Shown here: positions 521 through 55,220 of the stretch, piece by piece | Layout of the letters: every line of letters begins with the position of its first letter | Position numbering within the stretch: the stretch's first letter is position 1 | Source of the DNA: Lachnospiraceae bacterium | Lineage (GTDB): Bacteria > Bacillota > Clostridia > Lachnospirales > Lachnospiraceae | Assembly (NCBI GenBank): GCA_015057115.1 | Contig: SVEZ01000001.1 | Span: 1-64,000, forward strand | Direction: 5' to 3' | DNA: 64,000 nt | Position numbers and translations under genes: made by a program | The notes under the pieces: model-generated | Databases searched by the model: none | What the model saw: only the letters and a program-made list of their open reading frames with translations | What the model was told of the DNA's origin: nothing

Positions 521-2197
521 TTAAACGACTATAAAATTTTCTATATTATTCTCGAAAATCTGTCCATCTGAAATATGCAAAATCCGATCCACGTAGGATA
601 CCCGCTTTGCGTCATGCTCCACAACAATAACTTTTCTATTTCTATAATATTTCTTAAAAAGCTCCGAAAACCGCCCTTTAAATTCTTCATCCAAATTTGC
701 CAGCGGTTCATCCAAAATGATAACCTCTGCATCGCTCAACGCTGCACGTATAAGCTCCACCTTTTTCTTTTGTCCAGAAGAAAGCCGAACCTCGTTCCCC
801 AGAATCGTTTCCATCCCCGCCTTCATTTCTTTCACATCCCGTAGAAATAAGAAGTCCTCGCATATCTCCTGCAAGAATGTTTCCTCAATAGGTTTTTCGC
901 ACATTCCCAGCATAATATTTTCCCGCAAGGTCATTCCGGAAAGCACACATGGATTTGCAGCAAAATATCTTATTCCAAGTAGGCTTTCTCTTTGCATTTT
1001 TGAGACCTCTGTTCCGTCTATCATAAAAAGGCCGTCGCTTACACTTTCTTCCCCAAGAAGCATTTTGGTAAATGTCGTCTTTCCGGAACCATTCATTCCC
1101 AGCACAGCATACGAATTCTCCATATTCAAATCCATCGTTACATCCGCAAATAGTACCTTCTCACCAAAACATTTTTTCATATGCAAAAAGGAAAGTTCCT
1201 CCAGATCCATTCTGCTGCACTCGCTTTCCTCTTCCAATTCCAGGATTCCCAGCAATCTTTTTACATTCAATAACATTGGCTGAAGTGAGGTAAGCATCTG
1301 TATCACCGACATAAAATGTCCGGAAAACATAGACATATAGGAATAAAATACAATATACTCCTGCATCGTCACCTTTCCAGCCATCACCTCTCTACCCATT
1401 CCCAAAAAGAGAAGCATCTTTCCCGCATACATACAACTCTTACTTGCCGTTGAAATACAAACCACTTTTTTATTTTGAATAAGTCGCTTTGCTTTGATCA
1501 TTTCCATATTTCGTCTAGCAAAAGCAACCACATTTTCTTTCATGTTTTCATACCGGATGGCATGCATCTCTCCCAGTTCTTCATTTAAATATCTTTGGAA
1601 TTCATTTTCACTTTTCAAGCATTCCAACGCACAGTTTTTCACGGGTTTTACCCCTTTTTTCTGTATCAATCCAACCACAATCTGGATAACGGCAAAACTT
1701 CCTGCCCACATAGGTGAAATCCACACAAGTGTTGCTCCGATATAAATCAATACCGCTATACTAAAGGCATATGATATGATTTTAAACACATACGCCACAA
1801 CGGCTTCACTATCCTCCTGAATAATACTGTACTGTTCCCCCTCAGAATACCGCTCAATTTTTTCCTTGCGTGAACATAACACCCTTAACGCCCGCTCTTT
1901 CAATTTCATTACTACATCAAGTTGAATCTGTACATCCAGTTTTGCAGAAAAAATGCTGATTAAAATTGTTGCCAGTCCAACCACCGCAGTGACAACCAAA
2001 AAGAGGAAAAAACTCCTTTCATCTCTTTGATACAGTGCATCCGTTACGCCTGCAAGAACGTGGGTTTCCAAAAGTGCAGATGCTTGTATTATCAATGTAA
2101 AGAGCGCCGAGAGAAAAAGTTTCCCTTTATTATTACCAAATTCTCGTAATGCTTTTTGAAAATATATTCGTATTTCATGTACCGTTCCCTGTTTCAT
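521..2197 (-). CDS. ABC exporter, fused membrane and ATPase domains (RiPP cluster)
   Basis: A 558-residue half-transporter. The N-terminal ~310 residues carry the hydrophobic segments of an ABC exporter membrane domain. The C-terminal half is the ATPase: Walker A GMNGSGKTT, signature LSSGQKK, Walker B VIILDEP and a switch His in VVEHD. There is no N-terminal C39 peptidase domain, so leader removal must come from another protein if this pump exports the cluster peptides. It is the last gene of the minus-strand run that starts with the radical SAM gene at 9275, about 90 bases after precursor peptide 1. GAGGGAAG precedes the ATG. The natural inference is export of the modified peptides; self-protection is an alternative. 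Membrane-domain family membership is clear, the substrate is inferred from context only. Confidence 0.85.
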   Translation of the reverse strand: MKQGTVHEIRIYFQKALREFGNNKGKLFLSALFTLIIQASALLETHVLAGVTDALYQRDERSFFLFLVVTAVVGLATILISIFSAKLDVQIQLDVVMKLKERALRVLCSRKEKIERYSEGEQYSIIQEDSEAVVAYVFKIISYAFSIAVLIYIGATLVWISPMWAGSFAVIQIVVGLIQKKGVKPVKNCALECLKSENEFQRYLNEELGEMHAIRYENMKENVVAFARRNMEMIKAKRLIQNKKVVCISTASKSCMYAGKMLLFLGMGREVMAGKVTMQEYIVFYSYMSMFSGHFMSVIQMLTSLQPMLLNVKRLLGILELEEESECSRMDLEELSFLHMKKCFGEKVLFADVTMDLNMENSYAVLGMNGSGKTTFTKMLLGEESVSDGLFMIDGTEVSKMQRESLLGIRYFAANPCVLSGMTLRENIMLGMCEKPIEETFLQEICEDFLFLRDVKEMKAGMETILGNEVRLSSGQKKKVELIRAALSDAEVIILDEPLANLDEEFKGRFSELFKKYYRNRKVIVVEHDAKRVSYVDRILHISDGQIFENNIENFIVV

Positions 2198-2288: not shown

Positions 2289-2450
2289 TTAGCAACGTTT
2301 TATAATGGCTCCATACGTCCCCCACGGAATTGTTACATCTGAACCCCCACCTAATCCGCCTGCAGGTACCACCTTTTTTGATGTCTCAATTTCCTCCTCC
2401 GGTAAAAGTTCAGCTTCCAATTCTTCTCCCCATAATGTTAATGTATCCAT
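2289..2450 (-). CDS. RiPP precursor peptide 1
   Basis: A 53-residue peptide starting at an internal Met of a longer open frame. The start is fixed by GGAGGAAAAACAA before ATG, identical to the site before precursor 2. The leader begins MDTLTLW, shared with the two other small ORFs at 4163 and 7726, and is acidic (LPEEEIE). The junction reads VVPAGG and the presumed core is Gly-rich then aromatic (IPWGTYG), ending KRC. Unlike the other two precursors it has no internal Cys; its only Cys is the last residue. It lies 29 bases after lipoprotein 1 and before the ABC exporter. Substrate of the radical SAM enzyme at 7971 is an inference from leader conservation and linkage. Confidence 0.78.
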   Translation of the reverse strand: MDTLTLWGEELEAELLPEEEIETSKKVVPAGGLGGGSDVTIPWGTYGAIIKRC

Positions 2451-2479
2451 TTGTTTTTCCTCCGCTTTCTTTAAAATAA

Positions 2480-4090
2480 TTACCTTGTTTTTCTTCTCAC
2501 TCGCTCTAGTTCGTTCTGAATCCACTCCCAAGTGTCTTCCTGCAATTGCTTAAACGTGATGCCCAGAATTTCATCCGGTTCGCCGTCACTCTGCGCCCAT
2601 TCCACTAACTTATCCATGCCATAAGTGTCATATACATATTTTGCCATACAACCACGCATCGAATAGCCAAATGCATCATTACGGAATTTTTCCAATGAAA
2701 AAAACTTCTTTACTAACCCATTGGAAAAGCAATACTCTACAACCTCCAACATATTGTATTTTGTAATCGGCTGTTGTTTTTTTTCATTCCAAAATCCCGC
2801 TTCTTGATAGGACTGCCTTACAGTTTCATCTTCACATCTTTTCTTGAAATAGTTGTCCTGCATTTCGCCGGTTCTCTCTATCTCTGCAATCCACACTGCA
2901 AAGAATTCCGGAAAATAACGATTATCAACCGGCAAAATTTTTCCTTCCCCTATGGTCAAATAATGAACGTATTCATGCAACAGGGAATACTTTACCTGTT
3001 CCCAATCATGGTATAAATATATACAATTATTTATCGGAGACTGTCTTCCAGATACAGCTTCATCTGAATTGTCACCATTCTCACCTTGAACAAATTGCGT
3101 AATCATATACGGTTTTCCAATTTTTGGGGGTAACCAATTCTCTAAAAACTCACGTACATTCGCAAAATCCTTTCTTCGTAGCGGTTCTATCTCTTTATAT
3201 TGTTCCATCATCTCTTTATAGCCGAGCTGTTTCACATCTCGATCATCCCAAACCCAGATTGCATCGTTTTCCGGAAGTTCGTAGCTCTCCATCATGCCAA
3301 TTTTTGTGTCATGTGCCCGATATGTATTTGGAACAAAAAATGCCTTACAGAACTCTTCATATTTATTTTTGCAACCAATAGACTTCAACCAATCATTTTT
3401 CAACGCAACCAGCTTGGTTTTGTCATATTCTTTTATGTCTCGGCAAAGTGTCTCATAGTCTTTAAAAGAATACTTTTCAACATACCAGCTGGCGAAAGAT
3501 TTTACAGCATACCGGCAAAGTTCTGCCTCCTTCTCCGTCATATACACCGACTCCACCATCGGACTGCAAAAGTCTAAAAGATATAAATTTTCGCAATCAT
3601 CAAAGCTCCTTTTCAGCTCGTTCTGATCTGCCTCATCTTTTTTAATCAGATCCCGGTTTACTGCATACAGATAAAACAGCCCATACTGCTCCCCGCAGTT
3701 TACCGGATAAACGCTTTCCATCACATTGAAAATTCCTTCAGCAGTCAACTCACTATCCAACGGTATCTGCTGTTCTCCGGTAGAAAAACCAAGATAGACA
3801 ACGGCATTTTCTTTCTTATCCGAAAAAATTTTGCTTCCATACCTAATCACTTGATTCAAGTCATTAACCCGTTTTGTAGCCTTACTTTCATCAAAAGCTC
3901 CTGACTGAACGACGTAACGTACACCATCCAGTTCCGTGAAGTAACAGGGTTGGTTTCTACCGTTAATCTCCTCTCGATGATTTGCCCACTTGACTTCTAC
4001 AGTCTGTGCCTGTTCATGTTCTTCTTTTCCACAGGCAGTGAATACTATCACCAGAAGTAGTATGAGTGCTATACGTTTTATCTGTTTCAT
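2480..4090 (-). CDS. Lipoprotein with gluzincin-type HEYVH motif (1), RiPP cluster
   Basis: A 536-residue protein with a lipoprotein signal peptide (lipobox FTAC, Cys 20) and therefore probably anchored outside the membrane. Residues 372-376 read HEYVH in the context LLHEYVHYLT, followed about 25-30 residues later by PEFFAVWIAE, which could supply the third Glu ligand of a gluzincin zinc peptidase. Cys residues are frequent in the N-terminal half. It is almost identical to lipoprotein 2 (4358) over roughly residues 1-340 and the last 55, but differs around and after the catalytic motif. It starts after TAGGAGAGAAGG. Gene order lipoprotein-then-precursor suggests a peptidase that matures or degrades the exported peptide; immunity is the alternative. 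No characterised homologue is recognised. Confidence 0.8.
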   Translation of the reverse strand: MKQIKRIALILLLVIVFTACGKEEHEQAQTVEVKWANHREEINGRNQPCYFTELDGVRYVVQSGAFDESKATKRVNDLNQVIRYGSKIFSDKKENAVVYLGFSTGEQQIPLDSELTAEGIFNVMESVYPVNCGEQYGLFYLYAVNRDLIKKDEADQNELKRSFDDCENLYLLDFCSPMVESVYMTEKEAELCRYAVKSFASWYVEKYSFKDYETLCRDIKEYDKTKLVALKNDWLKSIGCKNKYEEFCKAFFVPNTYRAHDTKIGMMESYELPENDAIWVWDDRDVKQLGYKEMMEQYKEIEPLRRKDFANVREFLENWLPPKIGKPYMITQFVQGENGDNSDEAVSGRQSPINNCIYLYHDWEQVKYSLLHEYVHYLTIGEGKILPVDNRYFPEFFAVWIAEIERTGEMQDNYFKKRCEDETVRQSYQEAGFWNEKKQQPITKYNMLEVVEYCFSNGLVKKFFSLEKFRNDAFGYSMRGCMAKYVYDTYGMDKLVEWAQSDGEPDEILGITFKQLQEDTWEWIQNELERVRRKTR

Positions 4091-4162
4091 TCCTTCTCTC
4101 CTAACTAGCTAGGCCAAAATATCTACTAACTTCTAAAAATCCGTTTTATCTTATTTTCGTCA

Positions 4163-4327
4163 CTAACATTTGATTGGATTTGCCATCCGATGGGTATATT
4201 CCGGACCAGAACTGCTAGTTCCGCAACTTCCACCAGCTATCGGCACTGCTACCTTTGACTCTCCAAGTACTCCTTCTTCGAAATCTTCTGTTTCTAATTC
4301 ATCTACCCAAAGTGTTAATGTATCCAT
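4163..4327 (-). CDS. RiPP precursor peptide 2
   Basis: A 54-residue peptide. The ATG is preceded by GGAGGAAAAACAA. The leader starts MDTLTLWVDELE and is acidic; the junction VPIAGG is followed by SCGTSSSG and a variable tail ending IKC. It therefore has two Cys, one just after the Gly-Gly and one at the C-terminus. It shares leader and SCGTS element with precursor 3 and leader and terminal Cys with precursor 1. It begins 30 bases after lipoprotein 2, the same lipoprotein-precursor spacing as the 2450-4090 pair, which argues that the two-gene unit was duplicated as a block. Confidence 0.8.
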   Translation of the reverse strand: MDTLTLWVDELETEDFEEGVLGESKVAVPIAGGSCGTSSSGPEYTHRMANPIKC

Positions 4328-4357
4328 TTGTTTTTCCTCCATTTTTCTTTAAAATAT

Positions 4358-5968
4358 TTACTTTGTTTTTCTTCTCACTCGCTCTAGTTCGTTCTGAATC
4401 CACTCCCAAGTGCCTTCCTGCAATTGCTTAAACGTGATGCCCAGAATTTCATCCGGTTCGCCGTCACTCTGCGCCCATTCCACTAACTTATCCATGCCAT
4501 AAGTGTCATATACATATTTCGCAATGCAACCACGAATCGGATATGTAATCGGGTTCTTTACCATGCTAGCCAATGATAAATTTTTCTTTATCATTCCGTT
4601 GGAATATTCGTACTCCATCAACTCCAAATCTGTATAATTCACAAATGGTCTGTTGTTTTCTCCATCCCAAATTCCAGTTTCCTGATATCCCTGTCTTACA
4701 GCTTCATCTTCACACCTTTTTTGAAAGTATTCTGCACGCATTTCACCAGGTTCCTCTATTTCTGCAATCCATACCGCAAAGAACTCCGGAAAATTATGAT
4801 TATCTATTGGCAAAATTTTTCCTTCCCCCATAGTCAAATAGTGTACGTATTCATGCAGCAGGGAATACTTTACTTTTTCCCAATCATGATATAGGTATAT
4901 GCAGTTATCAAGAGAAACCGTTCTTCCCTCTATTGCTTCATCTGAATTGTCACCATTCTCACCTTGAACAAATTGCGTAATCATATACGGTTTTCCAATT
5001 TTTGGGGGTAGCCAATCCTCTAAAAACTCACGTACATTCGCAAAATCCTTTCTTCGTAGCGGTTCTATCTCTTTATATTGTTCCATCATCTCTTTATAGC
5101 CAAGCTGTTTCACATCTCGATCATCCCAAACCCAGATTGCATCATTTTCCGGAAGTTCGTATCTCTCCGTCATGCCAATTTTTGAGTCATGTGCCCGATA
5201 TGTATTTGGAACAAAAAATGCCTTGCAGAACTCTTCATATTCATTTTTGCAACCAATATACTCTAACCAATCATTTTTCAACGCAACCAGCTTGGTTTTG
5301 TCACATTCTTTTATGTCTCGGCAAAGTGTCTCATAGTCTTCAAAAGAGTACTTCTCAACATACCAGTTGGCGAAGGATTTTACCGCATATTGGCAAAGTT
5401 CTGCCTCCTTCTCCGCCATATACACAGTCTCCACCATCGGACTGCAAAAGTCTAAAAGATATAAATTTTCGCAATCATCAAAACTCCTTTTCAGCTCGTT
5501 CTGATCTGTCTCATCTTTTTTAATCAGATCCTGGTTTACCGCATACAGATAAAACAGCCCATACTGCTCCCCGCAGTTTACCGGATAAACGCTTTCCATC
5601 ACATTGAAAATTCCTTCAGCAGTCAACTCACTATCCAACGGTATCTGCTGTTCTCCGGTAGAAAAACCAAGATAGACAACGGCATTTTCTTTCTTATCCG
5701 AAAAAATTTTGCTTCCATACCTAATCACTTGATTCAAGTCATTAACCCGTTTTGTAGCCTTACTTTCATCAAAAGCTCCTGACTGAACGACGTAACGTAC
5801 ACCATCCAGTTCCGTGAAGTAACAGGGTTGGTTTCTACCGTTAATCTCCTCTCGATGATTTGCCCACTTGACTTCTACAGTCTGTGCCTGTTCATGTTCT
5901 TCTTTTCCACAGGCAGTGAATACTATCACCAGAAGTAGTATGAGTGCTATATGCTTTATCTGTTTCAT
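4358..5968 (-). CDS. Lipoprotein with gluzincin-type HEYVH motif (2), RiPP cluster
   Basis: Also 536 residues, with the same lipobox Cys 20 and the same HEYVH at residues 372-376, followed by PEFFAVWIAE. The DNA of the first ~1000 and last ~170 bases is nearly the same as lipoprotein 1, while residues ~343-480 differ (for example DLELMEYEYSNG against MLEVVEYCFSNG). That is the pattern of a recent duplication with diversification, or recombination, confined to the catalytic/specificity part. The start follows TAGGAGAGACATAA. It follows lipoprotein 3 by 40 bases and precedes precursor 2, so it is probably co-transcribed. Role as in lipoprotein 1: an extracytoplasmic peptidase for the cluster peptide is the best guess. 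Confidence 0.8.
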   Translation of the reverse strand: MKQIKHIALILLLVIVFTACGKEEHEQAQTVEVKWANHREEINGRNQPCYFTELDGVRYVVQSGAFDESKATKRVNDLNQVIRYGSKIFSDKKENAVVYLGFSTGEQQIPLDSELTAEGIFNVMESVYPVNCGEQYGLFYLYAVNQDLIKKDETDQNELKRSFDDCENLYLLDFCSPMVETVYMAEKEAELCQYAVKSFANWYVEKYSFEDYETLCRDIKECDKTKLVALKNDWLEYIGCKNEYEEFCKAFFVPNTYRAHDSKIGMTERYELPENDAIWVWDDRDVKQLGYKEMMEQYKEIEPLRRKDFANVREFLEDWLPPKIGKPYMITQFVQGENGDNSDEAIEGRTVSLDNCIYLYHDWEKVKYSLLHEYVHYLTMGEGKILPIDNHNFPEFFAVWIAEIEEPGEMRAEYFQKRCEDEAVRQGYQETGIWDGENNRPFVNYTDLELMEYEYSNGMIKKNLSLASMVKNPITYPIRGCIAKYVYDTYGMDKLVEWAQSDGEPDEILGITFKQLQEGTWEWIQNELERVRRKTK

Positions 5969-6008
5969 TTATGTCTCTCCTAGCATTTATATTTTTCCGT
6001 TTCCTGTT

Positions 6009-7628
6009 TTACTTCCCATTCCACATTTTCTCAGCTTCTTCATTAACAAAAGCTTCTACCTTCTCATGCAATTCCGGGAACGAAATGCCCAGTACCTCAT
6101 CCGGCACTCCTTCTGCCTGTATCCATTCGATTAGCTTATCCATGCCGTAAGTATCGTAGACATACTTTGCGATGCTTGCTCTGACAGGATAATTCTGCAA
6201 AGTATTATCCATATCCTCCCAGTCCATATTCTTTGTGACCATCCGCTGTTCGTAGCGCGTCGTAGCACCGGAAAACTGAACAAATGCTCCATCTACAAGT
6301 TTCTTTTCCGCATCCCAAAGTCCCTTTTCCTGCCAAATTTTCTTTCCTTCTTCTGATAATGCATTTTTGTCTACCCAGTAACCATACATCCTATTGGACA
6401 GTTCTATCCCTGCAATCCACTCTGCTATAGGTTCATCCATATAGTTAGGTGAATGTATTGTTATGAGTTTTCCGTCACCAACTGTCAAATAATGGACATA
6501 TTCATGGAGCAAAGAATGCGCTACCGAATCCCAATTCACTCGCATTTCAATGAATTTCTCTTCATAATAGGTGAATCCATAAGTATCCTCCGGACCGGTG
6601 TCATCTTTTGTTTGTTCAAAACGAGTAACCACGTATGGTCTTCCCACATCCTCTGGAATGTAGTCTTTTAAATATGCTCTCGCCTCAGCAAAGTCCTCCC
6701 GCCGAAGCGGTTCAATTTCCTGATACCTTCTGACCATTTCTTTATAACCAATGGATTTGACATCCCGGTTCTCCCATGCCCAAATTATATCCGCTTCCGG
6801 CAATTCATACCTTCCCGTAAAAAATTCCCACTCAAAGTGACACTGTTGAAAGAAAAGCTTACCAAACTCCTCATATTTGTTCTTGCAACCAATAGACTTC
6901 AGCCAATCATTCTTCGCCTGCACCAGCCTTTTACTATCATAGCTTTCGATATCACGGCAAAGTGCCTCGTATTCCTCAAAAGAATAAGTATTTTCGTACC
7001 ACTCAGCAAAAAGCTTGGCAGCGCTACGACAAAGTTTTGCCTGTTCTTCTTCCACATAAAAGGATTCCACCATCGGACTTGTAAAATCTAATAAATACAG
7101 ATTATCTTTATCATCAAAGTCCTTTTTAATGGCATCCACGTCGACATCTTCTGCTGCAAGCAAGCCATTTTTCACGCCATAACGGTAGAATAATCCATAT
7201 TGCTCTGCACAGTTTACGGGATATACGCTTTCCATTGCGCTGAAAACGCTTTCCGCTGTCAGTTCTTTATCTAGCGGAATCTGCTGCTCTCCGATGGAAA
7301 AACCAAGGTAGATGATTCCTTCTGCTTTACCACCTGGGAAAATGGTTTCCCCATACTCCAGAAATTGTATCAGGTCTCCAACCATTTTCTCCACCTGCTT
7401 CTTTTCAAACCCGCTTTTATTAGCAACAAAGCGAACTCCATTTTGTGCCGTACACTCACAGTCAGCGGCTTTTCCACTCACCTTTTCCTTGCGGCTTTCC
7501 CATTTCAGGTTTTTCACTACCGCCTTTGCAGTCTCTGCTTTGCCACAGGCTGTAAACAACAGGCTTCCCATTATCAATAGCCCCACTATGCTTAACACTG
7601 TCTGCAATATCCGAATTTTTCTTTTCAT
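6009..7628 (-). CDS. Lipoprotein with gluzincin-type HEYVH motif (3), RiPP cluster
   Basis: A 539-residue, more diverged member of the same family. The signal peptide is longer and the lipobox LLFTAC puts the lipid Cys at residue 28. HEYVH lies at residues 375-379 and is followed by DEPIAEWIAGIE, again a possible gluzincin Glu. Blocks shared with the other two include LGFSxGEQQIPLD, ESVYPVNC, EQYGLFY, and VYDTYGMDKL near the end. AAAGGAGTC precedes the ATG. It follows precursor 3 across a strong stem-loop at 7681-7714. Because precursor 3 precedes it while precursors 2 and 1 follow their partners, this may be the ancestral copy from which the duplicated pairs arose. Confidence 0.8.
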   Translation of the reverse strand: MKRKIRILQTVLSIVGLLIMGSLLFTACGKAETAKAVVKNLKWESRKEKVSGKAADCECTAQNGVRFVANKSGFEKKQVEKMVGDLIQFLEYGETIFPGGKAEGIIYLGFSIGEQQIPLDKELTAESVFSAMESVYPVNCAEQYGLFYRYGVKNGLLAAEDVDVDAIKKDFDDKDNLYLLDFTSPMVESFYVEEEQAKLCRSAAKLFAEWYENTYSFEEYEALCRDIESYDSKRLVQAKNDWLKSIGCKNKYEEFGKLFFQQCHFEWEFFTGRYELPEADIIWAWENRDVKSIGYKEMVRRYQEIEPLRREDFAEARAYLKDYIPEDVGRPYVVTRFEQTKDDTGPEDTYGFTYYEEKFIEMRVNWDSVAHSLLHEYVHYLTVGDGKLITIHSPNYMDEPIAEWIAGIELSNRMYGYWVDKNALSEEGKKIWQEKGLWDAEKKLVDGAFVQFSGATTRYEQRMVTKNMDWEDMDNTLQNYPVRASIAKYVYDTYGMDKLIEWIQAEGVPDEVLGISFPELHEKVEAFVNEEAEKMWNGK

Positions 7629-7680
7629 GTTATAGCGACTCCTTTTTGTTGTTGACTCTTAGCCATCTCATCTTCTTATC

Positions 7681-7714
7681 GGTAGAGTGCAATAGTCTTC
7701 TATCGCACTCCACC
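7681..7714 (-). promoter_or_regulatory. Strong intercistronic stem-loop between precursor 3 and lipoprotein 3
   Basis: A 15-base stem (7681-7695 with 7700-7714, two G-U type mismatches) closes on a four-base loop. On the minus strand it is followed by GATAAGAAG rather than a T-run, so it is not a standard terminator. A stem just after a small, presumably abundant peptide message and before large enzyme genes fits mRNA stabilisation or partial attenuation that gives more precursor than lipoprotein. That role is inferred. Confidence 0.6.
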
Positions 7715-7725
7715 TTTTACTGCAC

Positions 7726-7905
7726 CTAGCATCTAAATTTGTAGCCCTGGAACTGGCTAGGAGCAGGGTCATAACCCCCACCGCCACCACCACTAGTTCC
7801 GCAGCTCCCTCCGGCTACCGGCACTACCTTTTTTGATTCTCCCAGTTCTTCTTCCGTTAATGTAGATGTTTCTACTTCATCTACCCAAAGTGTTAATGTG
7901 TCCAT
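7726..7905 (-). CDS. RiPP precursor peptide 3
   Basis: A 59-residue peptide, the first gene after the radical SAM enzyme. AAAGGAGAAG precedes the ATG. The leader begins MDTLTLWVDEVE, with an acidic stretch LTEEELGES, then KKVVPVAGG. The presumed core starts SCGTS, runs into six consecutive Gly, then YDPAPS and ends FRC. As in precursor 2 there is a Cys two residues after Gly-Gly and a terminal Cys. A Gly run next to a Cys would suit a radical SAM thioether at an alpha carbon, as in sactipeptides or ranthipeptides, but no specific bond can be read from sequence. Too short and too atypical to be found by standard gene length filters. Confidence 0.82.
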   Translation of the reverse strand: MDTLTLWVDEVETSTLTEEELGESKKVVPVAGGSCGTSGGGGGGYDPAPSQFQGYKFRC

Positions 7906-7970
7906 TTTTCTTCTCCTTTTCTTATGTACTTTTTTATATGTTATCGTCGCGACGTGATAACCATTCCCAG

Positions 7971-9275
7971 TTAGGCAATAAATTTTCTTGCCTCGTTAAA
8001 CAGATGATCTGCATCCATTACCAGATCAATTTCCTTTAAAATCTCCGCTTCTTTCCAGATTCCGCAGAACCCTCTGTCAATGGTTCCATGCGTCGAAATT
8101 GCTGACGCCGGACAACCTCCTTTACAAAACAGTGCCATCTTGCACTCTTTGCATTCTTCCAGTGTTGATGTATCTCTTGTTCTAAACTTTTCAACGATAT
8201 CCTTGTATACGACAGTCTGTGGATAAAACTGACCTACACAGTTATTCTTATCCTTTACCAGATTACAATTATATACATATCCATCCGGGGCAAATACCAG
8301 ACCTTCTGACATATTCGCCGAACATCGTATCCGATCTATCTTCCCGTTCTGCAGCTTATCCTTTAAGGAATAAAACATTCCTGTTAATCCTGGGATAATC
8401 CCGCGACCGATATATCTTGCTCTTTTATCAGCATTAATCAGCTTCCTAAGGTGTTCTATCGTCATTAGTTGTCGTTTTGAAGAACATCCCTGAATTCCCT
8501 CATCCATTTCCACATTAATGTTTACATTAATGTTGTCTTCTTTCAACCATCCCAATTCTTCTAATATATCCATAAACTCGATATACTCTTCTATTGAATA
8601 ATCCGGACTAAACACCGTTCCGATGGTTGTATTTATTCCTTCCTTGACCAGAAAATCAACACCCTCGATAATCTTCTGGTAAACATTTTCTATCCCTGTT
8701 TTTCTTTTGCTAAGCTGCATTCGCTCAGTTCCATCAAGAGAAACCGTTACTTTAGGTCGATATTTCTGAATTAAATCTTTATAGAGAAGTAATTCCGCTC
8801 CATTTGTTGTGATTTCATATTCAAGATCGCCAAACTCTTGAAAAATCGCTTCAATTAATTCTCTGTCATTGCTTCGGAAGATTTCACCTCCCATCAAGCC
8901 AATTCTTTTCAATGTTGAATTACAATTCATTTCCTTATCCCACTGTTTTAAAAATGGCTTAATATAGTGTAACATCTCCGGGGACATCTCATCTTTTTTG
9001 AAATGTCTCTCAAAACAGTATTCACATTGAAAGTTACACTTAAACGTCGGTAAAATTCCGATGGTCTCTGCTGCCGCCACTGTTGTTTCTATATAATTTT
9101 CTTCCGTAAGTGGTGCCCGAAACTGTTCGCAGGAAGCATTCTCACAATCATTTTTTAATGTATGAATCGCTTCCCTCACATCGCTTTTATCAACTGCCAA
9201 CATCTCTGCATTCTTCGGATTGATAATCACAATCCCTTTTGATGCTCGCATCACAAACAAGTCGTCTGTATTCAT
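7971..9275 (-). CDS. Radical SAM/SPASM peptide maturase
   Basis: A 434-residue enzyme. The radical SAM cluster motif CNFQCEYC gives Cys 80, 84 and 87. An MGGE stretch follows in the SAM-binding part. The C-terminal third has SPASM-type Cys spacing: RIRCSAN, YNCNLV, NNCVG, then ECKECKMALFCKGGCP and FCGIW, expected to hold auxiliary iron-sulfur clusters. The first ~70 residues precede the barrel and could bind the leader, although no clear RRE was established. Start: AGGAGG six bases before ATG. It opens the operon with precursor 3 only 65 bases downstream and is driven by the minus-strand promoter at 9318-9346. Family assignment is secure; the cross-link formed is unknown. Confidence 0.93.
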   Translation of the reverse strand: MNTDDLFVMRASKGIVIINPKNAEMLAVDKSDVREAIHTLKNDCENASCEQFRAPLTEENYIETTVAAAETIGILPTFKCNFQCEYCFERHFKKDEMSPEMLHYIKPFLKQWDKEMNCNSTLKRIGLMGGEIFRSNDRELIEAIFQEFGDLEYEITTNGAELLLYKDLIQKYRPKVTVSLDGTERMQLSKRKTGIENVYQKIIEGVDFLVKEGINTTIGTVFSPDYSIEEYIEFMDILEELGWLKEDNINVNINVEMDEGIQGCSSKRQLMTIEHLRKLINADKRARYIGRGIIPGLTGMFYSLKDKLQNGKIDRIRCSANMSEGLVFAPDGYVYNCNLVKDKNNCVGQFYPQTVVYKDIVEKFRTRDTSTLEECKECKMALFCKGGCPASAISTHGTIDRGFCGIWKEAEILKEIDLVMDADHLFNEARKFIA

Positions 9276-9317
9276 CCCTAACCTCCTGAATTGTTGCCGT
9301 TGTTTCCTGACACCTCA

Positions 9318-9346
9318 ACATTACCATGCAACACTCGTAGAAACAA
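9318..9346 (-). promoter_or_regulatory. Promoter of the radical SAM RiPP operon
   Basis: On the minus strand a poor -35 box TTGTTT (complement of 9341-9346) is separated by exactly 17 bases from a -10 box TAATGT (9318-9323). The -35 abuts and overlaps the left outer arm of the dyad centred on 9366. A weak -35 touching a regulator site is typical of activated promoters. It is the mirror image of the promoter at 9386-9414. Confidence 0.6.
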
Positions 9347-9388
9347 GGGACATATTAGTCAAGTAGTACTTGACCAACTTGTCCCTTG
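9344..9388. promoter_or_regulatory. 45-bp four-half-site dyad, likely operator of the cluster regulator
   Basis: Outer arms CAAGGGACA (9344-9352) and TGTCCCTTG (9380-9388) and inner arms GTCAAGT (9358-9364) and ACTTGAC (9368-9374) are both perfect and share one centre, base 9366, with 5-base spacers on each side. Both divergent promoters place a weak -35 box the same distance from the centre. A regulator carrying two different HTH domains and binding as a dimer would need four half-sites of two kinds, which is what is seen. It has no T-run, so it is not a terminator. Confidence 0.75.
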
Positions 9389-9414
9389 CTTCCGCTCAGA
9401 TTCCTAGCTACAAT
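9386..9414 (+). promoter_or_regulatory. Promoter of the exported peptide gene
   Basis: A weak -35 TTGCTT (9386-9391) lies at the right end of the dyad, 17 bases before -10 TACAAT (9409-9414). It mirrors the radical SAM operon promoter across base 9366, so both directions should respond to the same bound regulator. Confidence 0.6.
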
Positions 9415-9466
9415 AAACGCATACACGCAAGACGCACAAGCGTCTGCACCATTCAGGAGGTACATT

Positions 9467-9640
9467 ATGAAAAAGAGAAAAACATTACTTGCCCTTACAT
9501 TACTTGTACTTACATTAAGTACACAAACCGTAAACATTGCAGATTTAGCTAATGGTTCTACACTCTCGGAGGATATGCTAAAAACGTCGCATGTATCTAC
9601 AATGAATGATGACGATGAATCAATTCGTCTTAACAAATAG
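9467..9640 (+). CDS. Small exported peptide, candidate signalling pheromone precursor
   Basis: A 57-residue ORF on the plus strand. AGGAGG at 9455-9460 sits six bases before ATG, about as good a ribosome site as exists. The N-terminus is a textbook signal peptide: MKKRK, then a run of Leu/Ala/Thr (LLALTLLVLTL). The rest is hydrophilic and acidic, with TMNDDDES and the end IRLNK. Its 3' end overlaps that of the large HTH/helical-repeat regulator by 11 bases, tail to tail, and its promoter shares an operator with the RiPP operon. Small secreted peptide next to an XRE-helical regulator is the arrangement of RRNPP/Rgg-type quorum sensing. No Cys is present, so it is not a substrate like the three precursors. 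Pheromone function is inferred. Confidence 0.78.
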   Translation: MKKRKTLLALTLLVLTLSTQTVNIADLANGSTLSEDMLKTSHVSTMNDDDESIRLNK

Positions 9641-11486
9641 ACTTTAACTCAGTTAATTTTTTTAATTTATTTTTTTCACGTACATAGTCTCTCGCAAGAT
9701 TATGCAATGCAGCAATCGGATTCAACGGCTCAACATCTGTTGTTTCCGATTGCTCGTTTTTATTCCACCAAAGCGCATACAGCGCACGCACAACACTTAA
9801 TATATCTTTATCACCATATGCCGTATACAATAACTCATTGCACATACAATCCGATTTTTCAAAATTGTTATGATTGCCATAGTAACTCTGAATATACTTC
9901 CACGCATAGGTAATATATATCGCCTTATTTATCTCCTGCGCCGTACCAATGCAATCTCTGTAATAGGTTTCTATTCCTCGTATAATCTTTTCTTTTTCCT
10001 CTTGTTCATCTGACATCACAAAAAGATACAGAATGTAGGATTCTATTTCATCCCACTCGAAATACTTCGCCTTCCTTTCTGCCCAAATCATCTCCACAGG
10101 TATACTTGTTTCGATGGTTTCCCGCATTTTCTGAGCGTGTTCCTGCCGGGAAATTTCACCTAGTTGATACTGTAAGACACTCTCTTCCTGCTGCAAACAC
10201 CTGCGATTGTATTCAATTTCCACCGGAATGTCTCCCTTAATGGCATTCAACCGTTCTCTTGCCTGTTCATACTCAAATCGATTCATCAGCCGAGAAATTT
10301 CCACTGTTTCCAATTTCACTTCCAGTGTAGTTCCCACATAATCCCCCTTGAAAAAGGTTCTTGGCAAATGCAATCGTTCAAACAAATCTACTGCCACAGA
10401 TTTTCGCGGATTAACATGATTGTTTTCTATCCGTCGGATGGTTTTTTCATCACAGATTCCTTCTGCCAATTCTTTTCCGGTCATCCCCAACATCAAACGA
10501 CGGCGCCGGATTACATCATTGGTGCACTCTACATTCCGCAACGCATAGACAATGGCAGTCTCGATGGTTTCTTTTTCTACACCAATCTGCTCATACATCC
10601 ACTCTACTGCCGTTAGCCACCGCTGGTTTTCGTTCTTCTTATCCTGCAACAACAAATATCCCGGATTTCTTTCACAAAGCTCAGACAGCATTTTTTTGCG
10701 GCAATCCAATATTTCCCATAGATAACCCATGTAGTAACAATCCCGCAAACTATCCAACGCTTCAACGAGAAGATCTTCCATCTTGGATAACTCTCTATCA
10801 TCCCATTCCTTCAACTGCTTCTGCTTTTCTTTCTGTCGATACAAATATACCCCTAGCTTAGGCAATACTTTACACGTTCCCCTGGTATCTAGATTTCGGC
10901 TACGAACATAAGAAAGTGTGGCTTCCAGATTCTCATAATTTTTCTCCGGTAGGTAGTTGTAGTATTCAATCAGCGTATCCATTTCTTCTATAGAAAGGGG
11001 CTTCGCCTTCAAATACTCCATGGACAACTCTGGTAGCGTGCAACGAAGGCTTTCTTCTAAGTCCTTTCGGATTGCATCTCGTTCACCACCGCGACATGCT
11101 GCCAGCATGGCCCGCATCCTTAAGAAGAACTGCTTCTCCAATTGGTGCTTTTCTTGGTATTTTTCTTCAAAGATAGCTAGCTGTTCCTCCACCGTAGCAT
11201 AGTCTCTTTTAATCAGACCATAAATTATCTGTATCTTACACTGCCAGCATTCGTACTCCTCCACTGGCAAATAGGTCTGAAAATACTCCGCACCGACACC
11301 CAGTCGCTCCAATAATCGATGGCACACTCCCATAGGTAATTCTTTTTTCTGTTGTTCATAATATGTAAGCATACTTTCGGAGCACAAGCCTATACACAAA
11401 TCTTCTGCCTTGACTCCATGCAGTTCCCGAAGAAACTTTGTGTAATCCGCCAACTCCCAATACGCTTTTTCTGCTAATTCTTCCAT
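9630..11486 (-). CDS. Large regulator with two XRE-type HTH domains and helical repeats
   Basis: 618 residues from the ATG at 11486, chosen because AGAAGGAAAAC precedes it; the open frame extends 28 codons further without a ribosome site. An XRE-like HTH occupies about residues 13-60 (FLRELHGVKAEDL ... LERLGV). A second, better one is near residues 320-375 (RRRRLMLGMTGKELAEGIC, then RRIENN). Each is followed by a long helical region resembling TPR-type peptide receptors. This duplicated HTH-plus-helices layout is compatible with the RRNPP superfamily. It converges on the exported peptide gene, and the four-half-site dyad at 9344-9388 is its most likely target. Activator, repressor or peptide-switched role cannot be told from sequence. 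Confidence 0.82.
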   Translation of the reverse strand: MEELAEKAYWELADYTKFLRELHGVKAEDLCIGLCSESMLTYYEQQKKELPMGVCHRLLERLGVGAEYFQTYLPVEEYECWQCKIQIIYGLIKRDYATVEEQLAIFEEKYQEKHQLEKQFFLRMRAMLAACRGGERDAIRKDLEESLRCTLPELSMEYLKAKPLSIEEMDTLIEYYNYLPEKNYENLEATLSYVRSRNLDTRGTCKVLPKLGVYLYRQKEKQKQLKEWDDRELSKMEDLLVEALDSLRDCYYMGYLWEILDCRKKMLSELCERNPGYLLLQDKKNENQRWLTAVEWMYEQIGVEKETIETAIVYALRNVECTNDVIRRRRLMLGMTGKELAEGICDEKTIRRIENNHVNPRKSVAVDLFERLHLPRTFFKGDYVGTTLEVKLETVEISRLMNRFEYEQARERLNAIKGDIPVEIEYNRRCLQQEESVLQYQLGEISRQEHAQKMRETIETSIPVEMIWAERKAKYFEWDEIESYILYLFVMSDEQEEKEKIIRGIETYYRDCIGTAQEINKAIYITYAWKYIQSYYGNHNNFEKSDCMCNELLYTAYGDKDILSVVRALYALWWNKNEQSETTDVEPLNPIAALHNLARDYVREKNKLKKLTELKSIC

Positions 11487-11513
11487 TTGTTTTCCTTCTT
11501 TCACACAAGGATT

Positions 11514-11559
11514 ATTATACCATAATAGCGACGAGGAGAATACAAATTTATTTGTATTC
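11514..11559 (-). promoter_or_regulatory. Regulator promoter with overlapping 22-bp palindrome
   Basis: An extended -10 TGG-TATAAT (complement of 11514-11519) lies about 28 bases before the regulator start codon. Its -35 position is poor and falls inside a perfect palindrome, GAATACAAAT (11538-11547) and ATTTGTATTC (11550-11559). Autoregulation is plausible. The palindrome differs from the dyad at 9366, so another protein could bind it. Confidence 0.55.
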
Positions 11560-11573
11560 GACGACCGCAAGTG

Positions 11574-11900
11574 ATAACAAGCACTTGTGCTTGTTATACC
11601 ACGAAAGCAGGAGCCAAACGAGCATTTAAAACAAATACTCTCGAAGGGAGTGACAGTCGGCTACGACTGTCAGTTTCGGATTGAGAAGCCGGAATTGTGC
11701 TCGCACTTATTGCGGCTTCTTAATCCGTACATGGCCCGCCTCGCGGGTTATCTCCCTGAGATTGTATTTGGGCATTGCGCTCATTCGGCGACGCTACGCG
11801 ATAACAGCCCCCCGCGGCTGTTATACCACAATTAATGACTTAGGTAAACTACTTACTGCACGATAACAGACGAACGTCTGTTATACCACAAAAGCACGAA
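11574..11900. repeat. Cluster of related palindromes with a shared GTTATACCAC flank
   Basis: Three stem-loops share the outer sequence GATAAC...GTTATACCAC with different stem interiors: ATAACAAGCA/TGCTTGTTAT (11574-11597), ATAACAGCC/GGCTGTTAT (11801-11824) and ATAACAGACG/CGTCTGTTAT (11863-11884). The first and third are followed by a similar AAAGCA-GA-CCAAACGAGC segment. Between them are TGACAGTCG/CGACTGTCA (11651-11672) and a 15-base stem 11677-11691 with 11713-11727. No ORF here looks coding. Covarying stems with constant flanks suggest a REP/MITE-like family or structured RNA. Confidence 0.6.
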
Positions 11901-11960
11901 CCAAACGAGCGCAAAGTGCTCGTTTATGGTCGTTGACCGCTCTCACCCATTTTTTCTTTG

Positions 11961-54373: not shown

Positions 54374-55117
54374 TCAGTGCATGTCAAACCAATCCAGCAA
54401 GGTCACTTCCCGCTTGGTTCTGCCCCATCGCTGATAACAAAGCATTACTTCTTCTATATTTCCGCCTTCCCGTCTAACCAGTTCTTCTACCGTCAGGAAG
54501 CTTTTCCAATAGTAATAAAAAACGGTGGTCATTCCTTTTTCATAGACACTCTGATCAAATCCATTTAAGGACTGCTCTCCGTTCTGCTCTTCAAACAATT
54601 CAATCAACAGGCGGTTGATTTCTTTTTCTTTCTCATACTCCGCCTGGGTTAAATACCACTTTCTACTGATATATTCTGCCATGCCTTCTTCAAACCACAT
54701 GGTTTCTTCAAACAGCTCATCCCAAAAATATTCGCTCCAGTGTACGAATTCGTGTCCGAAAATTTGACGCACCTGGCTAATGGGCAAGTTCTCATAATAA
54801 TCCCGCACCTTTCCCACCTTCTCATCCCACATATCATAGTCTTTAAGTTGAGACAGGTAGACTCCTTTCCACGCATCCAAATATGGTGTCATAACAGTTC
54901 GCCAATCATTTGTGAAAGCCGGAACCGGAAGTTCTGTTATCAGCTCTGTGGCACTCCTGTAATCTGTCCATACAATACACTTGGGGATTTCTTTTACTCC
55001 CATATCACTTTGAAGCATGTTTACATACTCCTCCATGCCCTCCATCAAAAGCGGCGTATGTTTTTTCAGTTCCTGCAATTCCTCTTCATTTTTACATAAA
55101 TACAACTGCTCCATGGT
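54374..55117 (-). CDS. Unknown protein with HEFVH gluzincin-like motif
   Basis: 247 residues from ATG 55117, chosen for AAGGAGACGG upstream. FGHEFVHWSEYFWDELFEE has an HExxH motif, and TMWFEEGMAEYISRKW offers the Glu of a gluzincin (E then E about 18-20 residues on). No signal peptide or membrane helix, so cytosolic. The HExxH sequence differs from the RiPP-cluster lipoproteins. Function unknown. Confidence 0.7.
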   Translation of the reverse strand, partial: TMEQLYLCKNEEELQELKKHTPLLMEGMEEYVNMLQSDMGVKEIPKCIVWTDYRSATELITELPVPAFTNDWRTVMTPYLDAWKGVYLSQLKDYDMWDEKVGKVRDYYENLPISQVRQIFGHEFVHWSEYFWDELFEETMWFEEGMAEYISRKWYLTQAEYEKEKEINRLLIELFEEQNGEQSLNGFDQSVYEKGMTTVFYYYWKSFLTVEELVRREGGNIEEVMLCYQRWGRTKREVTLLDWFDMH

Positions 55118-55220
55118 TCCGTCTCCTTTTCTGCCAGATGGTGTCAAGTCCGGTACTACCTACCGGGGTGTGTTCCATATCATATCACATTGGCTTGATG
55201 CGTGCAAGCCGTGTGTCACG

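Follow-up and report, generated by a model that had tools for sequence, protein, structure and literature searches.

Pheromone control of radical S-adenosylmethionine (SAM) peptide chemistry has been described in streptococci, where the Rgg/SHP operons for radical SAM ribosomally synthesized and post-translationally modified peptides (RaS-RiPPs) combine a peptide pheromone and a cytoplasmic receptor of helix-turn-helix (HTH) and helical-repeat build with a radical SAM enzyme, precursors and a transporter (PMC13361665). Receptors of the RRNPP/RRNPPA type (PlcR, NprR, Rgg, Rap and AimR) combine an HTH with helical repeats and have an adjacent small signal-like peptide gene; the published RRNPP signature and screen used receptors of 250–500 amino acids (aa) (PMC10075063). 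Here the analysis concerns a locus of a Lachnospiraceae bacterium, carried on a 64,000-nucleotide stretch (positions 1 to 64,000 of contig SVEZ01000001.1, assembly GCA_015057115.1), hereafter the window. A sequence-only reading of this DNA had proposed a pheromone-controlled radical SAM system at 2289..11486, made up of a double-HTH regulator, a facing 57-aa exported peptide, a radical SAM/SPASM enzyme, precursors with an MDTLTLW leader, lipoproteins with HEYVH motifs and an ABC exporter. All of these genes were found in the sequence, the ABC exporter lying beyond that range. We consider it probable that a doubled RRNPP-like pheromone receptor controls a radical SAM RiPP operon of no named class, with the 57-aa peptide as its signal and a 53-bp palindrome as its site.

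The locus resembles the Rgg/SHP RaS-RiPP operons in that a peptide/receptor pair goes together with a radical SAM enzyme, its small precursor peptides and a transporter. It differs from them in a regulator with two HTH units per chain, not the single HTH of the Rgg type, in a 57-aa peptide of signal-peptide type where SHP is short and hydrophobic, and in the addition of three lipoproteins with a zinc-peptidase motif. By eye, none of the sixteen core motifs named in the streptococcal review (PMC13361665) was common to the six precursors described below, and a named streptococcal RaS-RiPP class was rejected on this ground and on that of the two HTH units. Set against the RRNPP criteria of PMC10075063, the peptide falls within the propeptide range of 10–100 aa and the two genes are adjacent (convergent), whereas the receptor, at 618 aa and internally duplicated, lies beyond 250–500 aa. 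The doubled class is therefore outside the published screen. No description of this class, and none joining RRNPP and Lachnospiraceae, was found in the literature within reach, which held few subscription journals and preprints.

Duplication of the regulator

The regulator gene (9630..11486, minus strand; start codon at 11486, stop at 9630) encodes an internal duplication of one HTH and repeat unit, the two units (HTH plus TPR-like helical repeats) standing head to tail at about residues 1–309 and 310–618. A Pfam HTH_3 match was obtained in the second half, and the first HTH was revealed by a profile comparison of one half with the other. In hhalign, the N-terminal half aligned with the C-terminal half with a probability of 99 and an E-value of 4.6e-18 over 240 columns; HTH against HTH gave 98.5 and repeats against repeats 91.8, as opposed to 0.6 and 0.2 in cross controls that set each HTH against the repeats of the opposite half. 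A FastTree phylogeny of the halves, which was not relied on, placed the N-halves in one group (support 0.58) and left the C-halves non-monophyletic as rooted.

Structural comparison pointed to pheromone receptors. The best Foldseek match of the regulator model was PlcR in complex with PapR and DNA (probability 1.00, E-value close to 1e-3, TM score by target 0.58) and Rgg2 and a Listeria regulator were also in the list, with unrelated TPR proteins scoring equally high in the Foldseek and VIA-align rows. Residues 322–606 of the model aligned with nearly all of PlcR and residues 41–307 with NprR, and each half is predicted from the model to have a PlcR/Rgg-like fold. Helical repeats like those of PlcR and NprR were predicted in a protein giving no Pfam TPR match at E-values up to 1. 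The sequence-only reading had taken the regulator for a different, duplicated type; the duplication holds, but a wholly different type does not, each half resembling one RRNPP unit. Searches with the regulator gave nothing useful among PDB sequences and no relatives in the viral contig and plasmid collections. A phage search returned one weak match that was not counted, a 627-aa regulator-like protein with 21.5% identity on MT837868.1 (L087). This unverified scaffold of 6 kb comes from faeces and is entered as Bacteriophage sp., but its other open reading frames (ORFs) look bacterial by eye, and the label is probably wrong. A role in defence was rejected, the PADLOC matches being only weak HTH, ABC and viperin-like ones.

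The facing exported-type peptide

Convergent with the regulator, and overlapping it by 11 bases, lies a gene for a 57-aa exported-type peptide with the tail HVSTMNDDDESIRLNK (9467..9640, plus strand), the likely pheromone precursor. It sits behind an AGGAGG ribosome site, and its basic N-terminus and hydrophobic stretch, assigned by a hydropathy rule, predict export.

The pairing of regulator and exported peptide suggested by the sequence-only reading proved to be general. It was assessed at 23 regulator loci, seven from the genome that carries the window (G000; 2.62 Mb, 25 contigs, 96% complete, the window lying on C17), five from four other genomes among 200, and 11 from named Lachnospiraceae or unassigned records. 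Of 26 available regulator loci, three were excluded, L025 as a partial match, L049 as partial and L044 because a contig end cuts it; a 79-aa fragment on C4 of the own genome was also excluded, and the frame-broken L019, L022 and L048 were kept. A facing peptide was scored as an opposite-strand ATG ORF of 20–110 aa with a ribosome site, a basic start and a hydrophobic stretch, located at the 3′ end of the regulator. One was present at 16 of the 23 loci and at 3 of 177 control genes drawn from the same loci (Fisher test, 1e-15). Facing ORFs of 23 aa at L021 and 74 aa at L048, both with a good ribosome site, failed the filter and were scored as negative. When the three frame-broken loci were removed, the counts were 15 of 20 for the peptide and 13 of 20 for the palindrome treated below. 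At one of these three, L019 (C5 of the own genome, 7917–9960), the regulator is split over two frames and the facing peptide ORF is intact.

The tails of these peptides share a loose pattern. Eleven of 17 (the 16 and that of L077, a locus found later and outside both 23-locus counts) carry [IV]x[PTL]x[NSDH][DN], against a maximum of three in 2000 shuffles, the motif having been written after the tails were viewed; examples are VSTMND in the window and ISPMND, IAPLSD and VSTYSD elsewhere. Among the own-genome peptides only that of the window has the motif, and tails differ among the paralogues.

The 53-bp palindrome

The divergent space at 9276–9466, with the peptide gene on one side and the radical SAM gene on the other, contains a 53-bp dyad (9340..9392) in which CAAGGGACA-N5-GTCAAGTA is mirrored by TACTTGAC-N5-TGTCCCTTG, a likely operator. 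Its score of 18 was equalled in none of 200 shuffles preserving base content only. The other radical SAM locus that is linked to a regulator, on C18 of the same genome, likewise has a long palindrome separating the peptide gene from the radical SAM gene. With a dyad defined by a score of at least 12, a length of at least 40 bp and a position within 500 bp downstream of a gene, 15 of the 23 regulators had one, against 8 of 172 control genes (Fisher test, 2e-11); two of those eight were further copies of the L016 palindrome and one was the dyad of L048 itself. A promoter scan returned 22 sites, fewer than in shuffles (mean 29.6), and was not used.

At L016 (own genome, C25:90000-109900), three near-identical palindromes of 51–55 bp were found at 5189–5239, 7585–7639 and 11502–11554. 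The copy at 7585 precedes the exported peptide gene and the other two adjoin flanking genes for secreted-type proteins without a Pfam match; the three sites together have the look of a small regulon under a further regulator of this class. A half-site resembling CAAGGGACAGAGTTGTCAA was recognized by eye at 10 of the 23 loci (the window, L015, L026, L037, L038, L042, L043, L045, L047 and L048). The outer-arm pattern alone was a poor predictor, matching 31 of 397 family genomes against 18 for the reversed control by our own count. When 30 outer-arm loci were fetched (one per other genome, with 1500-base flanks), a regulator was present only at L077, which was also the only locus with the inner half-site and has a facing peptide ending in PGIAPLSDKDTHGTVEK. 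The locus has more structure than the sequence-only reading had described, and its most unusual feature is the doubled RRNPP-like receptor with a facing candidate signal gene and a long operator-like palindrome.

The probable radical SAM operon

Read along the minus strand, the regulator is followed by the radical SAM gene, precursor A, lipoproteins 1 and 2, precursor B, lipoprotein 3, precursor C and the ABC exporter. Each gap from the radical SAM gene through the ABC gene is under 100 bases, so that a single transcript from radical SAM to ABC is likely.

The radical SAM/SPASM protein (7971..9275, minus strand; 434 aa), the likely precursor-modifying enzyme, carries CNFQCEYC (CX3CX2C) and all seven SPASM cysteines, as do the CteB/SCIFF, CbpB, PapB and Clo7bot maturases, and scored 42.2 bits with Pfam Radical_SAM (cut-off 29.5) and 46.3 bits with the SPASM model TIGR04085 (cut-off 27). 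It differs from CbpB and the other named maturases in falling far under every NCBIfam equivalog cut-off among the best 25 of 57 rows, where the nearest models were CbpB, PapB and DynA and the best, TIGR04163 (CbpB), gave 59 of 375 bits. The sequence-only reading had recognized no named class, and this agrees with the equivalog scores and with the literature found. The best solved relative was 5wgg (E 4e-9, profile positions 70–400), which we take to be CteB.

On the sequence searches made, the enzyme family is rare. A word-based search of 5.8 billion entries returned eight close proteins (51–99%), at least two of which are the C18 and C19 copies of the same genome, and seven distant ones. Genome searches found the enzyme in 1 of 200 family genomes at E 1e-60 (itself), 1 of 7 genus genomes at E 1e-40 (itself) and 2 of 392 order genomes at E 1e-60 (itself and the distant G401, E 8e-70). 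A single-sequence search of a genome contig collection yielded 23 stretches matching a pattern and no relatives, and none were found in the viral contig collection. The G401 locus (L036, G401:C17), viewed by eye, holds three radical SAM genes, an ABC gene, a hydrolase-like lipoprotein and a 53-aa peptide starting MKSINDLIW; no regulator was noticed within 9.6 kb, and the locus appears as a distant relative of the RiPP part.

Three likely precursors start with MDTLTLW and end in Cys, namely precursor A (7726..7905, 59 aa), precursor B (4163..4327, 54 aa) and precursor C (2289..2450, 53 aa), all on the minus strand. The search for this leader that the sequence-only reading had proposed was made with the MDTLTLW coding pattern, which, allowing up to two mismatches, matched only the three precursor sites in the 2.62-Mb genome, all exactly, and the reversed-pattern control gave five matches. 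The six precursors of the three own-genome radical SAM loci all start with hydrophobic-x-hydrophobic-Trp (MDTLTLW three times, NNFEIW, ELKLW and ELNLW), with Cys as the last residue in five and the penultimate in one. The terminal-Cys thiolactone of the GRC subfamily is tied to ThiF-like enzymes; such a thiolactone was considered for these precursors and set aside, no ThiF-like match being present among the Pfam matches of the operon. The ABC exporter (521..2197, minus strand; permease and ATPase) gave no Pfam match to a peptidase domain, so that removal of the leader would need another enzyme.

The three lipoproteins (6009..7628, 4358..5968 and 2480..4090, all minus strand) form one family, each with a lipobox Cys and an HEYVH motif. 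H375, E376, H379 and E399 were invariant both in an alignment of eight sequences and in 11 sequences, the Glu lying 20 residues past the second His. As in gluzincins (M30 lugdulysin, M9 collagenase, M1), HExxH is combined with a Glu, and the best fold matches were of this kind, with M30, M1 and M9 nearest; they differ from gluzincins in giving weak fold E-values (best 8e-3) and in having no Pfam or NCBIfam model above cut-off. The lipoproteins are likely to be surface zinc peptidases. A second HExxH protein (GHEFVHW), unlinked to the locus, was spotted by eye at 54374–55147 of the window. Short diverged direct repeats stand at both edges of the locus (11556–11910 and 188–355), for example TGTTATACCAC units at 11592 and 11879 and GCCTC...AGGCTAAC units at 241 and 324.

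Related loci in the same and other genomes

The own genome holds three radical SAM copies, seven regulators besides the fragment on C4, and nine lipoproteins. The radical SAM copies on C18 and C19 are 52% and 51% identical to that of the window. The C18 locus repeats the order of the window (regulator, facing peptide and radical SAM, then one precursor, two lipoproteins and ABC on one strand with gaps of up to 149 bases), which argues that the arrangement is more than chance. The C19 locus has radical SAM, ABC and two precursors, with no regulator and no lipoproteins; its position, by eye, is directly before genes resembling infC, rpmI and rplT. C24 carries a regulator with two lipoproteins but no radical SAM gene, and on C7 two lipoproteins stand by themselves. 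The radical SAM gene thus adjoins two of the seven regulators, and a facing peptide is present at six of them, C24 being the exception. The sequence-only reading would have been contradicted by a radical SAM homologue without the precursors or the regulator; the C19 copy goes half of the way, lacking the regulator but having precursors.

Lipoproteins accompany the regulator as often as they accompany the radical SAM enzyme, and five of the nine copies are inside the two full operons (window and C18). The lipoprotein peptidases had been called dedicated, a description that did not hold up with respect to the radical SAM gene: none accompanies the C19 copy, and C24 has two next to a regulator where radical SAM is missing.

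In other genomes, the regulator at six named loci (L037, L040, L042, L043, L045 and L046) is followed by large lipoproteins of 737–790 aa, and the three that were scanned match the SBP_bac_1/8 solute-binding families. Radical SAM was not noticed among the ORFs shown at those six loci, for which no dedicated search was made. The switch looks general, with the RiPP as one of its outputs.

Proposed mechanism and alternative explanations

In the mechanism that we favour, the 57-aa peptide would leave by Sec, be trimmed outside and re-enter through an Opp importer, for which the genome encodes SBP_bac_5-type binding proteins (five matches). The mature peptide would bind the helical repeats of the regulator and alter its activity, and regulator and peptide together would likely activate, via the 53-bp palindrome, the peptide gene on one side of it and the RiPP operon on the other. 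Each chain having two DNA-binding heads, a dimer would contact four half-sites, in keeping with a long dyad whose outer (GGGACA) and inner (GTCAA) elements are separate. The radical SAM enzyme would bind the hydrophobic-x-hydrophobic-Trp leader and modify the precursors, the ABC protein would export them, and the lipoprotein peptidases may cut peptides at the cell surface, either the RiPP leader or the pheromone. Pheromone control of the operon is, on this arrangement, likely.

Other accounts of the locus can be given. The regulator–peptide pair could be genuine and have its own gene pair or the lipoproteins as target, leaving radical SAM and precursors under other control. Most regulators have no radical SAM gene beside them (two of the seven in the own genome do), the C24 lipoproteins follow a regulator in the absence of the enzyme, and the C19 enzyme is encoded without a regulator; yet at both regulator-linked loci radical SAM is the first gene across the palindrome, and the precursor, lipoprotein and ABC genes then follow on the same strand with the short gaps given above, so that we regard this account as unlikely. 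If anything a shade more unlikely is that the long palindromes are terminators or repeat elements, uninformative on control. Some dyads detected by the same procedure resemble terminators, the one ahead of radical SAM on C19 continuing into T6 and an L018 dyad at 9543 ending in T7, and the G598 genome has eight outer-arm matches. However, window positions 9276–9466 contain no predicted gene end and the dyad has no T-run after it on either strand, its arms (the AAGGGACA dyad) occur once in the genome, the three L016 copies adjoin different units, and related half-sites adjoin regulators in other genomes. Three observations do weigh against the palindrome as the regulator's site: L017 and L018 hold peptide and regulator but no such dyad, the L023 dyad may be a terminator, and the C18 dyad differs in sequence from that of the window.

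As to the peptide, a role as a small secreted effector, as a bacteriocin-like peptide or as a membrane toxin restrained by antisense overlap with the regulator would account for the six of 17 peptides that lack the tail motif and for 3′ ends that overlap at several loci, as in antisense pairs. The overlap is variable, however, the stop codons of peptide and regulator ranging across loci from an overlap of about 93 bases to a separation of 68 bases, paralogue sequences diverge with position kept, as private signals would, and the regulator model is of the pheromone-receptor type; an effector or toxin is improbable, the least probable of the accounts considered here. A much more substantial possibility, if still not the preferred one, is that the lipoproteins act in immunity or in pheromone degradation rather than as RiPP maturation peptidases. 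It would be in keeping with the C24 copies, whose neighbouring regulator has no radical SAM gene, with the isolated copies on C7, and with the lack of any found on C19, where the enzyme is accompanied by precursors and an ABC gene of its own. Maturation is favoured by the five of nine copies inside the two full operons, and by the presence in the fold list of EryP, a lanthipeptide zinc peptidase, though at rank 33 with an E-value of 0.33.

Implications for Lachnospiraceae

Pheromone control of the RiPP operon by the doubled regulator would have a wider bearing. We lean towards the view that these regulators form an undescribed receptor class of two fused RRNPP units, whose dimer would read four half-sites in palindromes of about 50 bp, and that they would provide many parallel private channels in Lachnospiraceae. 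This genome has seven regulators, six of them with a candidate signal gene, and two of these channels would command a radical SAM RiPP family that has an LxLW leader, a terminal Cys and a chemistry without a name. The two DNA-binding heads, and possibly two peptide pockets, per chain raise the question of whether one signal is read or two. If the proposal is true, a small family of radical SAM peptides would come into view, and a family of gut anaerobes would gain a form of peptide signalling missed by the length limit of the published RRNPP screen, in which the signal, its receptor, the DNA site and the target can each be pointed to.

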